From an uncultured Eubacteriales bacterium (GTDB lineage Bacteria > Bacillota > Clostridia > Christensenellales > QALW01): a stretch of 11,917 nt of DNA. Position 1 is the first letter of the stretch, and each line of letters opens with the position of its first letter. The DNA lies in assembly GCA_900552055.1 (NCBI GenBank), contig URYI01000049.1, forward strand, positions 1-11,917, given 5' to 3'. A program made the position numbers and the translations under genes. This document shows, piece by piece, positions 8,920 through 11,894 of this stretch. The notes beneath the pieces were generated by a model. That model had not been told where the DNA came from and searched no databases. It was given only the letters and a program-made list of their open reading frames with translations.

Positions 8920-9645
8920 ATGTTTTGGCTTTTCTCTTTATTTGAGAAATTATATTTTCTCATATCTAATGTTTCTTCTCGTTCCTGTTTTCCTAAGCCC
9001 TTAAAAGCACATGAAGAAAGAGAATATATAGAGGCTTTTCTTAAAGGGGATTTGGATGCGCGGGATAAGCTTATAGAACATAACCTCCGTTTGGTAGCTC
9101 ATATAGTTAAAAAGTATTCGGCCCAGGGGGAGACGGACGACCTTATTTCAATAGGGACAATCGGCCTTATAAAAGCAATTAATACATATAATCCACAAAA
9201 AAGCGCGCATTTGGCTACCTATGCTTCCAGATGCATTGAAAATGAGATATTAATGTACTTAAGAGCGGGCAAAAAGAGAAAAAACGAAACCTCTTTGCAG
9301 GAACCGGTAGGCGTTGACAGAGAAGGAAACGAGATTTCGCTGTTTGATATATTGAAAAGCGACGACAGGAATATTTCGGATACTGTGGAATTGAGCATTA
9401 ATTCTGAGGAATTATACAGAAAAATAAACGATTGCTTGGGCAGCAGGGAACGGCTGGTCATCATTATGAGATATGGTTTGCATGATGAATTGCCTCTTAC
9501 GCAGAAGGAGGTAGCTAAAAGATTGGATATTTCCAGATCATATGTCAGCCGTATAGAAAAAAAGGCTTTAGAAAAGCTGAAAAATTTTATGGAAAGCCAG
9601 CCCATGAAATTCAATTCGGCGGGCAAATATAAAAAGGGCCAATAA
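8920..9645 (+). CDS. sigK: RNA polymerase sporulation sigma factor SigK (pro-sigma-K)
   Basis: The 241-residue protein is full length for pro-sigma-K, the late mother-cell sporulation sigma factor controlling spore coat and maturation genes. Residues 1-16 (MFWLFSLFEKLYFLIS) form a hydrophobic pro-sequence; by comparison with B. subtilis (FLVS followed by the mature start), processing by the membrane protease SpoIVFB would be expected after Ser16. Region 2 spans about 48-115, with LIEHNLRLVAHIVKKY, DDLISIGTIGLIKAI and LATYASRCIENEILMYL. Region 4 spans about 172-222 and contains the helix-turn-helix TQKEVAKRLDISRSYVSRIE. The coding sequence is continuous: the gene is not split by a skin-type recombinase element. 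The ribosome binding site is a modest GGGGGT seven bases before the ATG. It stands alone, followed immediately by a large GC-rich inverted repeat. Confidence 0.95.
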   Translation: MFWLFSLFEKLYFLISNVSSRSCFPKPLKAHEEREYIEAFLKGDLDARDKLIEHNLRLVAHIVKKYSAQGETDDLISIGTIGLIKAINTYNPQKSAHLATYASRCIENEILMYLRAGKKRKNETSLQEPVGVDREGNEISLFDILKSDDRNISDTVELSINSEELYRKINDCLGSRERLVIIMRYGLHDELPLTQKEVAKRLDISRSYVSRIEKKALEKLKNFMESQPMKFNSAGKYKKGQ

Positions 9646-9655
9646 ATAGAATTTT

Positions 9656-9792
9656 TTTGCGGCGTATGGCCTGCTTGCTGGGGGGCGGGGCGTTTGGCGG
9701 GGCGAAGCCCCGCCGGGGCCGCGCGGAGCGCGGCCGGCGGCCTTTCAGGCCGCAAACGCCCCGCCCCCAGCAGGCAGGTCATGCGGCGCAGA
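9656..9792 (+). repeat. 137-base GC-rich cloverleaf-like inverted repeat
   Basis: The outer arms 9656-9696 and 9753-9792 pair over about 39 positions with one bulged G (9680) and one G-G mismatch (9662/9786). The four other imperfect pairs (9657/9791, 9665/9783, 9669/9779, 9675/9773) are all G-U in plus-strand RNA. Inside lie three tight hairpins in a row: GGCGGGGC-GAA-GCCCCGCC (9696-9714), GGCCGCGC-GGA-GCGCGGCC (9717-9735) and GCGGCCT-TTC-AGGCCGC (9737-9753), each with a three-base loop. The element is far more GC-rich than its surroundings and starts 11 bases after the sigK stop. It might be a mobile repeat (REP or MITE-like), a structured RNA or an unusual terminator. No gene can be supported inside it. 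The 171 bases after it, up to the next gene, are AT-rich and contain TGGGGACAGGTCC (9811-9823), but no clear promoter. Confidence 0.85.
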
Positions 9793-9963
9793 CTCTTGTT
9801 TGGTTAAGTATGGGGACAGGTCCTGCTTGTTTTGATTTTATGCGGGTGCCAGCATTTCAATGATAAAAATAACTAAAAATAATATTCGGCTTGTGAATGA
9901 TTTTAACTGTTTGCTTCGTATTATATATGAAATCAAGAATTTATAAAACGGAGGTAATGGAAA

Positions 9964-10578
9964 ATGAAAAAAATTTTAATTGGGGGATTGATTTTTATAT
10001 TGTCTGCTGCTGTTACAATAAGCGCTCTGGCGTTTGGCGGACAAGCTCCGGACGTTTTGCCCAGCGAAGGTGGTAAGGCCTTAAACCAATATCTTGCCTG
10101 CGGGGACGATTGTAAATATGGAAACTTTATTGATGCTGATAACGACGGTATATGTGACAACAGAGAGGAAAGGCGGGATTGCTGGCAGAACGGCTCCTGC
10201 CAAGCTGGGAATTTCTCGGATACAGATAATGATGGCATATGTGATAATAAGGAGGGAAAGCGAAAGTGTGAACAGAATGGTTCATGCCAAGCCAATTTTA
10301 CAGATGCAGATAACAATGGTATATGCGACAACAGAGAGGAAAGGCAGGATTGCTGGCAGAATGGCTCCTGCCAAGCGGGAAATTTCACGGATGCGGATAA
10401 TGATGGCATATGCGATAACTGCGGACATAAGCAAGGAGGACTGCAAACGCGGCTGCGGCAGGAATCAAGTGATTTTATAGATGACGATAATGATGGAGTG
10501 TGCGATAATAAAGAAAATAACTGCGGAAACTGCAGCAGGCAAAATTGCGGGAGCCGCGGTCAAAACAAACGGGGTTAA
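9964..10578 (+). CDS. Secreted cysteine-rich protein with five Asp-rich (DxDNDGxCD) repeats
   Basis: The 204-residue precursor begins with a clear signal peptide (MKKILIGGLIFILSAAVTIS, cleavage likely after ALA near residue 23). Five repeats of the core F-x-D-x-D-N-[DN]-G-[IV]-C-D-N start at about residues 55, 84, 112, 141 and 171, with a period of 28-30 residues. The first three repeats also share a C-x-Q-N-G-S-C-Q-A tail. The DxDxDG pattern is that of calcium-binding loops such as those in EF-hands, dockerins and thrombospondin type 3 repeats, so calcium or another divalent cation is a plausible ligand. The mature part has about 17 cysteines, which suggests disulfides or metal binding. The C-terminus is short, basic and rich in Cys/Asn, without an anchor motif. 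A GGAGGT ribosome binding site precedes the ATG. It stands two bases ahead of an ECF sigma gene, so it is probably the sensed partner, target or output of that regulator. Confidence 0.85.
   Translation: MKKILIGGLIFILSAAVTISALAFGGQAPDVLPSEGGKALNQYLACGDDCKYGNFIDADNDGICDNREERRDCWQNGSCQAGNFSDTDNDGICDNKEGKRKCEQNGSCQANFTDADNNGICDNREERQDCWQNGSCQAGNFTDADNDGICDNCGHKQGGLQTRLRQESSDFIDDDNDGVCDNKENNCGNCSRQNCGSRGQNKRG
10126..10521 (+). repeat. Tandem coding repeats, period 84-90 bases
   Basis: Repeat starts lie at 10126, 10213, 10297, 10384 and 10474. Units one and three are nearly identical at DNA level over the GATAAC...TGCCAAGC part, while four and five have diverged after the DNDGxCDN core. The pattern points to recent duplication within the gene, with units one to three as the most recently amplified or homogenised block. 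Confidence 0.85.
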
Positions 10579-10580
10579 TA

Positions 10581-11051
10581 ATGCGCAGCGAGCAAGAAGT
10601 AGATATTGCCATTGAACGGTATTCGGATACAGTTCGCAGGCTCTGCCTGGTACATTTAAAAAACTATGCCGATACCGAAGATGTGTTTCAGACGGTATTT
10701 TTTAAGTATGCTGTCAGTACTGTTATATTTGAAAGTCAGGAGCATGAAAAAGCCTGGTTCATTCGGGTTACTCTTAATGCCTGCCGGGATTTGCTGAAAA
10801 GCTTTTTCCGCAGGCATACTGTGCCGTTGGAAGGGATAATTGAACCGGCGGTATTGCAGCAGGATAATAGAGATGTCTTGGAAGCTGTGCTTTCTTTGCC
10901 GCCTAAATATAGGGACGTAGTATATCTGCATTATTACGAGGGATATACTGCACCTCAAATAAGTACAATCCTTCATAAAAATGTAAATACAATTTATACT
11001 TTGCTGGCTCGTTCCAAAAAAATACTTAGGGAAAAGCTGGGAGGTGAATAG
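10581..11051 (+). CDS. ECF-type RNA polymerase sigma factor (sigma-70 family)
   Basis: The 156-residue protein has the minimal two-domain ECF layout. Region 2 covers about residues 8-78 with YADTEDVFQTVFFKY as the region 2.2 core and KAWFIRVTLNACRDLLKS following. Region 4 covers about 100-153 with LPPKYRDVVYLHYYEGYTAP, QISTILHKNVNTIYTLLAR and a basic final helix. No extra C-terminal SigI-type domain is present. The start is placed at ATG 10581, two bases after the stop of the repeat-protein gene, with ACGGGG as a weak ribosome binding site, so translation is probably coupled to the upstream gene. A TTG at 10545 would extend the frame back into that gene and is less likely. Four bases separate its stop from the anti-sigma start. 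It should be held inactive at the membrane by the next gene product and released by an envelope signal. Confidence 0.88.
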   Translation: MRSEQEVDIAIERYSDTVRRLCLVHLKNYADTEDVFQTVFFKYAVSTVIFESQEHEKAWFIRVTLNACRDLLKSFFRRHTVPLEGIIEPAVLQQDNRDVLEAVLSLPPKYRDVVYLHYYEGYTAPQISTILHKNVNTIYTLLARSKKILREKLGGE

Positions 11052-11055
11052 TACA

Positions 11056-11808
11056 ATGATAGACAGAATAAGACAGGCTTTTGATGCTGTTCATGCTGAA
11101 GAAAAATTAAAGACAGATACAAAAACCTATATCGCTAGAAAAACGCGGGAATACTCGCCGCATAATAGAACATTGTACCGCCGCTTAGCGGGGTTTGCCG
11201 CGTGCTTACTGCTTCTGCTTTTTTTAGGAGGAGGCTGTTATTTATATTTTGTTCCTACGGCGGCTATAAGCATAGATATTAATCCATCTATAGAATTAGA
11301 GATCAACCGCTTTAATAAAGTTGTTAAGGTTAATGGCTGCAATGACGATGGAAAAGAACTGGCTGCTGAATTGGATATCCGCTTTCTTAATTACAGCCAG
11401 GCCGTAGAAGAAATACTGAATAATCCTGAAATTGTTGATTTGCTGTCACAGGATGAGCTTTTGGCTATAACGGTTGTTTCAGACCAAGAGCAAAGTGAGA
11501 AAATGCTCTCAGAGCTTCAGGTTTATACGGCGGGTAATAAAAATGTATATTGCTGCGCGGCTAATTCGGATGAAGTTGCTGAAGCTCACGAGGTGGGGCT
11601 GTCGTACGGGAAATACAGAGCGTACTTAGAATTGCGTGGGCTGGATGATAATATAACTCCCGAACAGATAAATGATATGAGCATGAGGGAAATTCGGGAA
11701 ATGATCCGGGCTTTATCCGGCGACGGGCAGACAAATGGGAGCGGCGGGCCGGGCAGCGGCGCTGGCCATGGCCATGGAAATGGACAGCAAAATGGGAAAA
11801 ACGACTGA
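11056..11808 (+). CDS. RsgI-like membrane anti-sigma factor
   Basis: The 250-residue protein has a cytosolic, mainly helical N-terminus (about 1-43), one membrane helix (about 46-66) and an extracytoplasmic domain. Just outside the membrane it carries AISIDINPSIELEINRFNKV, which matches the conserved juxtamembrane domain of RsgI-type anti-sigma factors. In RsgI proteins the Asn-Pro bond of this motif is cleaved spontaneously; here that would be N76-P77. The N-terminus does not look like the standard RsgI N-terminal domain, fitting its ECF rather than SigI partner. The C-terminal 30 residues are Gly/Asn/His-rich low complexity (GSGAGHGHGNGQQNGKND). The start is the ATG nine bases after GGGAGGTG; a GTG at 11044 is part of that ribosome binding site. 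As the last gene of the unit it should bind and silence the sigma factor encoded just before it. Confidence 0.82.
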   Translation: MIDRIRQAFDAVHAEEKLKTDTKTYIARKTREYSPHNRTLYRRLAGFAACLLLLLFLGGGCYLYFVPTAAISIDINPSIELEINRFNKVVKVNGCNDDGKELAAELDIRFLNYSQAVEEILNNPEIVDLLSQDELLAITVVSDQEQSEKMLSELQVYTAGNKNVYCCAANSDEVAEAHEVGLSYGKYRAYLELRGLDDNITPEQINDMSMREIREMIRALSGDGQTNGSGGPGSGAGHGHGNGQQNGKND

Positions 11809-11865: not shown

Positions 11866-11894
11866 TTGACAAGGGGGGATAGATTTGGTATTAT
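11866..11894 (+). promoter_or_regulatory. Near-consensus sigma-A promoter reading out of the window
   Basis: A perfect TTGACA, a 17-base spacer containing GGGGGG, and TATTAT form a strong promoter. Transcription would start around 11901, in GAGCGCTCCGGAGGCAGGG at the window edge. The gene it drives lies outside the window. The strength would suit a stable-RNA or highly expressed gene, but nothing in the last bases identifies it. No terminator for the preceding unit is seen between 11809 and this promoter. Confidence 0.8.

Follow-up and report, generated by a model that had tools for sequence, protein, structure and literature searches.

A probable autoregulated extracytoplasmic function sigma switch with an exported Asp/Cys repeat protein as its predicted output

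What is the role of a small secreted protein whose gene opens an operon for a sigma factor and its anti-sigma? The question is raised by an 11,917-nucleotide stretch of DNA (contig URYI01000049.1 of assembly GCA_900552055.1, from an uncultured Eubacteriales bacterium), hereafter called the window. At positions 9964-11808, three genes lie in the same direction and encode a secreted Asp/Cys repeat protein, an extracytoplasmic function (ECF) sigma factor and an anti-sigma with an RsgI_M (SEAL-type) ectodomain. Only 2 bases separate the repeat gene from the sigma gene and 4 bases the sigma gene from the anti-sigma gene. The same gene order was found in most relatives, which argues against a chance arrangement and confirms the proposal, made in an earlier sequence-only reading, that the three genes form one tight unit. 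Judging from sequence comparisons, we conclude that this unit is probably an autoregulated, nearly single-target or 'private' sigma switch, whose output would be the exported protein.

A profile made from 23 aligned anti-sigmas was used to scan a genome collection (84,980 species by its own description), and the best 80 of 340 relatives were kept; the families among these 80 loci include Lachnospiraceae, Oscillospiraceae, Erysipelotrichaceae and Coprobacillaceae. Two tractable gut commensals, Claveliimonas bilis c-25 and Blautia caecimuris DSM 29492, are among the bearers of the unit. A homologous sigma gene adjoined the anti-sigma gene in 78 of the 80, and the repeat gene lay 5' of the sigma gene in 72. 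The repeat open reading frame (ORF) was found within 1600 bases 5' of the anti-sigma gene in 70 loci; beyond these, a repeat gene was also present in a locus cut at the contig start (L045) and in one encoding a degenerate unit, DVDGSGVCD, with its promoter kept (L075). Four loci (L047, L067, L073 and L079) count neither way, since their unit runs off the contig or has a truncated sigma gene. Loci L032 and L037 retained the promoter with the repeat gene reduced to a short remnant, and L053 and L059 had no repeat gene adjacent to sigma. No fourth conserved gene was found: the commonest neighbour family (ORFs of at least 110 residues) occurred in just 10 of 81 loci (the 80 and the window), of which 70 offered at least 2.5 kb of downstream sequence. 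The gene order, far from being confined to close relatives, is conserved well beyond them.

Co-occurrence of the repeat protein with the anti-sigma, which the sequence-only reading had put forward as a check, was nearly complete. At a threshold of E 1e-7, a repeat-protein profile matched 49 of the 50 genomes that bear the operon, and in all 49 the coordinates of the match corresponded to the operon or to a stand-alone, promoter-bearing gene; a second, weak match elsewhere was seen in two of the operon-bearing genomes (G038 and G005, E >1e-4). No comparable match was found in any of 80 genomes without an anti-sigma match, taken in list order from a 295-genome sample, where three weak matches (E 9e-6 to 1.3e-4) fell inside ORFs of 368-2253 residues.

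Analysis of 71 upstream regions (70 loci and the window) revealed a shared promoter. A first pattern derived from textbook ECF promoters gave no consistent result and was dropped. K-mer counts recovered TGAATGG in 64 regions and TCGTATT in 62, and the composite TGAATGGA-N14-TCGTATTA was found before the repeat gene in 70 of the 71 with up to four mismatches in total. The spacer was 14 bases in 70 of 70 cases, lengths of 10-19 being permitted, and the median distance from promoter to start codon was 47 bases. With any spacer allowed, the reverse strand gave 5 of 71 and 20 mononucleotide shuffles a mean of 12 and a maximum of 21. The bases before 9964, where the sequence-only reading had advised looking for an ECF promoter, do contain a predicted ECF-like promoter at 9894-9923 on the forward strand (TGAATGAT at 9894-9901, a 14-base spacer and TCGTATTA at 9916-9923), 40 bases before the ATG, and this was the sole match in the window at three mismatches or fewer. 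Shuffles of the entire 11.9 kb window also yielded a match in 22 of 200 cases (mean 0.11), so that the weight of the window's promoter rests on its position and on its relatives.

The promoter was also found at repeat genes that lie apart from the operon. A stand-alone repeat gene with its own promoter copy lies about 3 kb past the anti-sigma gene in L037, and in the genomes of L053 and L059 the repeat gene is on another contig, each time with an exact copy. In three of the four examined genomes without an intact neighbouring repeat gene, the promoter precedes a repeat gene elsewhere, which argues for control by the sigma factor and against a passenger gene. Of the three roles proposed for the repeat protein in the sequence-only reading, membership of the regulon, with feedback into the unit, is thereby supported; the other two, ligand and metal-dependent co-sensor, gained no support from the results.

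A search for further targets was performed in the 50 operon-bearing genomes. The exact 14-base pattern gave 42 matches in 41 of them and its reversed-pattern control 0; 16 bases with one mismatch permitted gave 56 matches in 48, and the control 1. Seven sites were left over besides operons and stand-alone repeat genes at one mismatch or fewer. One of these corresponds to a paralogous sigma operon in G010 (a TGAAAGGATT variant); of the other six, four fall within long frames or on the strand opposite to them, one has no frame after it and one (L223) enters a gene from its 3' end in antisense orientation. An exact match in G003 (L111) was dropped as chance, lying antisense to a ribosomal protein gene that we take, from its reading frame, to be rpmH. 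No convincing further target was found in these 50 genomes at one mismatch or fewer, and the conserved promoter class was convincingly found, in the genomes examined, only before a repeat gene, the operon or the paralogous sigma operon. The recognisable regulon would be the operon plus the repeat gene where this is separate, and weaker sites may be missed.

Two samples were drawn independently of the operon. The order of G010 (Claveliimonas), sampled with 295 genomes, showed the exact pattern in 13, of which 8 were before a repeat gene and 5 apparently due to chance (control matches, 5). The anti-sigma profile matched 18 of these genomes at E 1e-30; the 12 strongest (E <1e-70), G103 among them, all had a repeat gene and a promoter (0-4 mismatches), and they contain all 8 cases of the exact pattern before a repeat gene. 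The six weaker matches were heterogeneous: a repeat gene occurs in G251 (L138), secreted proteins of other kinds occur in G222 (L139) and G075 (L140), no secreted gene was seen beside sigma in G209 (L142), the locus of G299 (L141) is truncated at the start of its contig, and the anti-sigma gene of G100 (L143) has no sigma homologue as a neighbour. From the order of G005 (Anaerotruncus), 295 genomes were likewise sampled; TGAAWGGAT-N13-TCGTATT was found in 15 of them, with 13 sites followed by a repeat gene and then sigma and 2 apparently due to chance (control, 0). The sigma profile matched 23 genomes of this sample at E 1.3e-70 or better, plus a truncated sigma in G808; 21 of the resulting 24 encode DxDxDGxCD proteins and 3 (L199, L201 and L205) another repeat type, and the promoter was present with two mismatches or fewer in 21 of the 24. 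Six more distant ECF genes (L211 and L213-L217, 43-50% identity) had no secreted gene between the nearest promoter-like site and sigma, a scan that covered only this stretch (L215 has just 453 bases upstream).

In distant relatives, the repeat protein gives way to other secreted proteins rich in Cys or His. Across 391 genomes sampled class-wide, the anti-sigma profile matched 34 at E 1e-25, many of them SigI-RsgI-like. Taking the class-wide and order samples together, eight loci with a sigma 49-66% identical to that of the window encode a different secreted protein in the same slot: a CPNDG..DGTG type (L151, L153, L154 and L155), a His/Cys type (L139 and L156), a CxxC type (L161) and a His-rich type (L140). 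The same eight loci keep a promoter of the TGAA(T/A)GGA-N14-TCGTATTA type with 0-2 mismatches. L150 combines DxDGDGxCD and CPNDGVRPLDGTG. In the related sigma/anti-sigma unit of L205, the first gene also encodes a small exported protein from the group of Cys-, His- and CPNDG-type proteins. A sigma tree of 129 rows, left from 138 after removal of short or identical ones, placed all 106 DxDGDGxCD rows on one side (support 80) and the other types with the outgroup on the opposite side; this is a quick tree with long branches, the careful search being unfinished.

The window sigma gene (10581-11051, forward strand, ATG start) encodes 156 residues with regions 2 and 4 only (Sigma70_r2, 29.8 bits for a cut-off of 24; Sigma70_r4_2, 51.7 for 25.7). 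TIGR02937 scored 67.2 bits (cut-off 42.9), and the best PDB relative was SigW (E 6e-10); the two-region composition and the membrane anti-sigma encoded alongside are those of an ECF (group 4) sigma factor. The anti-sigma gene (11056-11808, forward strand) encodes 250 residues from its ATG; with the alternative GTG start at 11044 the protein would be 4 residues longer, although this codon overlaps the GGAGG ribosome site. The protein has an N-terminal helical part, one hydrophobic helix (assigned by eye and from the model), an ectodomain with the RsgI_M/SEAL fold (PF23750, 93.4 bits for a cut-off of 25.3) and a disordered Gly/His/Asn-rich tail. Only RsgI_M was found in a Pfam scan at E 0.01, the RsgI N-terminal domain being unmatched, and its partner is not SigI but an ECF sigma; we therefore class the protein among the ECF anti-sigmas, its ectodomain being of RsgI type, and not as RsgI, the anti-SigI, proper. 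This pairing, already proposed in the sequence-only reading, was borne out by Pfam, TIGR02937, the PDB relative and the model. An Asn-Pro scissile motif was present in 81 of 81 anti-sigmas (80 loci and the window); in the window it reads SIDINPS, and its Asn-Pro codons at 11281-11286 on the forward strand mark the self-cleavage site predicted by analogy with RsgI.

The repeat gene (9964-10578, forward strand) encodes 204 residues with a signal-peptide-like N terminus, judged by eye. Its units, in order DADNDGICD, DTDNDGICD, DADNNGICD, DADNDGICD and DDDNDGVCD, follow the pattern D-x-D-N-(D/N)-G-x-C-D; the five DxDNDGxCD repeats reported earlier stand in number and, for four units, in exact form, while the third deviates. 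Relatives share the consensus aromatic-V-D-A-(D/N)-G-D-G-(I/V)-C-D-N, with 1-6 units per protein at a median spacing of 22. The aromatic residue at -1 was found in 92% of units and I/V at position 7 in 98%, whereas D1, G6, C8 and D9 reach 100% by construction, being fixed in the search expression. No Pfam family matched the window protein above cut-off (best sub-threshold, TSP3_bac, 20.5 bits for a cut-off of 25), a PDB sequence search gave nothing at E <0.05, and the AlphaFold2 model was uninformative (predicted local distance difference test score, 44). The likeness to TSP3_bac (PF18884, thrombospondin type 3-like) lies in the Asp-rich DxDxDG loops; the repeat protein differs in falling under the family cut-off and in having one Cys per unit and 1-6 units. 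As a guess, the loops could bind Ca2+ or another metal, and the cysteines could serve in cross-linking. The L029 repeat protein carries a Big_2 domain (39.1 bits for a cut-off of 22.8), consistent with a cell-surface role. In L029, L078 and L069, one DxDGDGxCD unit is fused to another module; L078 resembles L029 by eye and L069 has no Pfam match. Proteins with DxDGDGxCD (P0061, P0048, P0054 and P0041) are also present in metagenome-assembled genomes of Bacteroidales, Ignavibacteria, Theionarchaea and Methanofastidiosia. Many DxDGDGxCD protein matches carry a precomputed Pfam assignment, PF27309, which a local Pfam scan did not report for P0020, and most small Asp/Cys repeat proteins in the match list are unnamed. 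The string DNDGVCD also occurs in a paper on a P. aeruginosa OprF fusion.

How might such a unit work? The accessible parts of two reports describe autocleavage, RseP and ClpP steps for RsgI (PMC12203970) and autoregulation of SigI-RsgI (PMC6056542). In the model that we propose, the anti-sigma would hold sigma at the membrane, and its ectodomain would self-cleave at Asn-Pro, the two halves staying joined until a surface cue separates them. The intramembrane protease RseP would then free sigma, as in RsgI, and the freed sigma would transcribe its own operon, the co-made anti-sigma resetting the switch. Because sigma would transcribe its own operon, positive feedback could turn a cue into a burst of one exported protein. 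Together with the conserved sigma promoter, this feedback suggests that the repeat protein is the output.

Several observations weigh against a private switch. The window's own genome was not among the 50 in which targets were sought, and its promoter has 2 mismatches to the consensus. One of the 71 upstream regions (L007) has no recognisable promoter, and L195, L204 and L212, from the order of G005, offer just 3-mismatch sites. A paralogous operon (L144/L224) has no repeat gene. The distant anti-sigmas L138 (SIDGSAS) and L142 (NVDVEPA) lack Asn-Pro, as judged by eye, and may need a protease for site 1; that of L139 has the motif (DVNPS). The anti-sigma frame of G127 contains an internal stop. 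G021 (L032) has retained its promoter, sigma and anti-sigma, yet the only trace of a repeat gene detected there was a remnant; the assembly may be incomplete. Finally, a strict pattern misses weaker targets, so that the term 'private' can be trusted no further than the pattern itself.

This last point is where a broad envelope-stress regulon, with the repeat protein as merely its most visible and best conserved member, finds its footing, and many ECF sigmas have dozens of targets. Since the 50 genomes gave no convincing site at one mismatch or fewer outside the operon, the stand-alone repeat gene and the one paralogous sigma operon, we regard such a regulon as quite improbable. A different alternative makes the secreted protein both output and input of a closed sensing loop, in which its metal-loaded or wall-bound form would bind the anti-sigma ectodomain or the Gly/His-rich tail and either clamp the anti-sigma (negative feedback) or pull it (activation). 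The nearly one-to-one co-occurrence of repeat protein and anti-sigma would fit, as would the lack of any Pfam domain beyond RsgI_M in the window anti-sigma and of another conserved neighbour, and CnrYXH provides a precedent for a metal-binding partner that controls an ECF anti-sigma (PMC7689651, accessible part). An obligatory ligand is nevertheless hard to reconcile with G021, with the paralogue L144, which has no secreted partner alongside, and with distant relatives that pair the same sigma family and promoter class with unrelated-looking secreted proteins, and we consider the loop unlikely. That the repeat gene is a passenger, sharing the sigma operon's promoter by positional accident, could be argued from its usual place directly after an autoregulatory promoter. 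Stand-alone repeat genes in three genomes have kept the promoter and the genes co-occur across orders, and we give this explanation virtually no credence. Beyond the autoregulated switch, we tentatively envisage a sigma family in Clostridia that acts as a single-product homeostat, an idea that we consider unlikely: sigma's sole recognisable job would be to control one exported protein of metal-binding type, and this protein would in turn determine how strained or how occupied the SEAL anti-sigma is. The exported protein (DxDGDGxCD, CPNDG..DGTG, His/Cys or CxxC type) would be evolutionarily interchangeable, and sigma, anti-sigma and promoter class constant.

The unit shares the RsgI_M/SEAL ectodomain, the Asn-Pro motif and an operon with sigma with SigI-RsgI of B. 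subtilis and of cellulosome Clostridia. It differs in its ECF sigma (regions 2 and 4), in the unmatched RsgI N-terminal Pfam domain, in a short low-complexity tail in place of a carbohydrate-sensing C-terminal module and in a secreted repeat protein encoded first. We take sigma24C of C. thermocellum to be ECF-like. According to the accessible part of one report, sigma24C-Rsi24C is among the pairs with RsgI-like anti-sigmas, outside the numbered SigI-RsgI series; unlike the window anti-sigma, Rsi24C carries a GH5-like module, and that part mentions no secreted repeat protein (PMC3990059). CnrYXH of Cupriavidus metallidurans likewise has three parts, with an ECF sigma and a metal-binding protein outside the cytoplasm, but CnrX is, in the part of the source available, a membrane-anchored sensor and the output an efflux pump (PMC7689651), whereas the window repeat protein looks like the output, metal binding being suggested by its loops alone. 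Autoregulation of ECF sigmas, anti-sigmas of the SEAL type and Asp-rich repeats are all known separately. In the open-access literature, most subscription journals being outside this coverage, we found no description of the three-gene unit, its promoter, the co-occurrence or the motif in Clostridia.

Upstream of the unit lies the sporulation sigma gene sigK (8920-9645; TIGR02846, 313.5 bits for a cut-off of 298.65). Between sigK and the unit, a long, GC-rich, imperfect hairpin occupies 9658-9790 (32-nucleotide arms 81% complementary, inner 16-nucleotide arms perfect) and may represent a mobile palindromic element. Close to the window's end, 11866-11894 strongly matches a sigma-A-type promoter (TTGACA, 17, TATTAT; 11/12) directed into the region after the unit. 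A DUF6320 protein whose start resembles a zinc ribbon is encoded on the minus strand (34-2035), in overlap with one that resembles an alcohol acetyltransferase. A plasmid collection gave no DNA match.

Bacterial SEAL domains, as known from RsgI, are thought to be force-triggered locks. For a widespread unit of gut Lachnospiraceae, Oscillospiraceae and Erysipelotrichia, the analysis names a promoter, a target and, as a prediction, the way in which sigma is released, and a family of small Asp/Cys repeat proteins gains a predicted role as sigma-controlled, exported products. A SEAL version with no recognisable sensor module and a single visible output would offer a simple system in which to find out what does the pulling.
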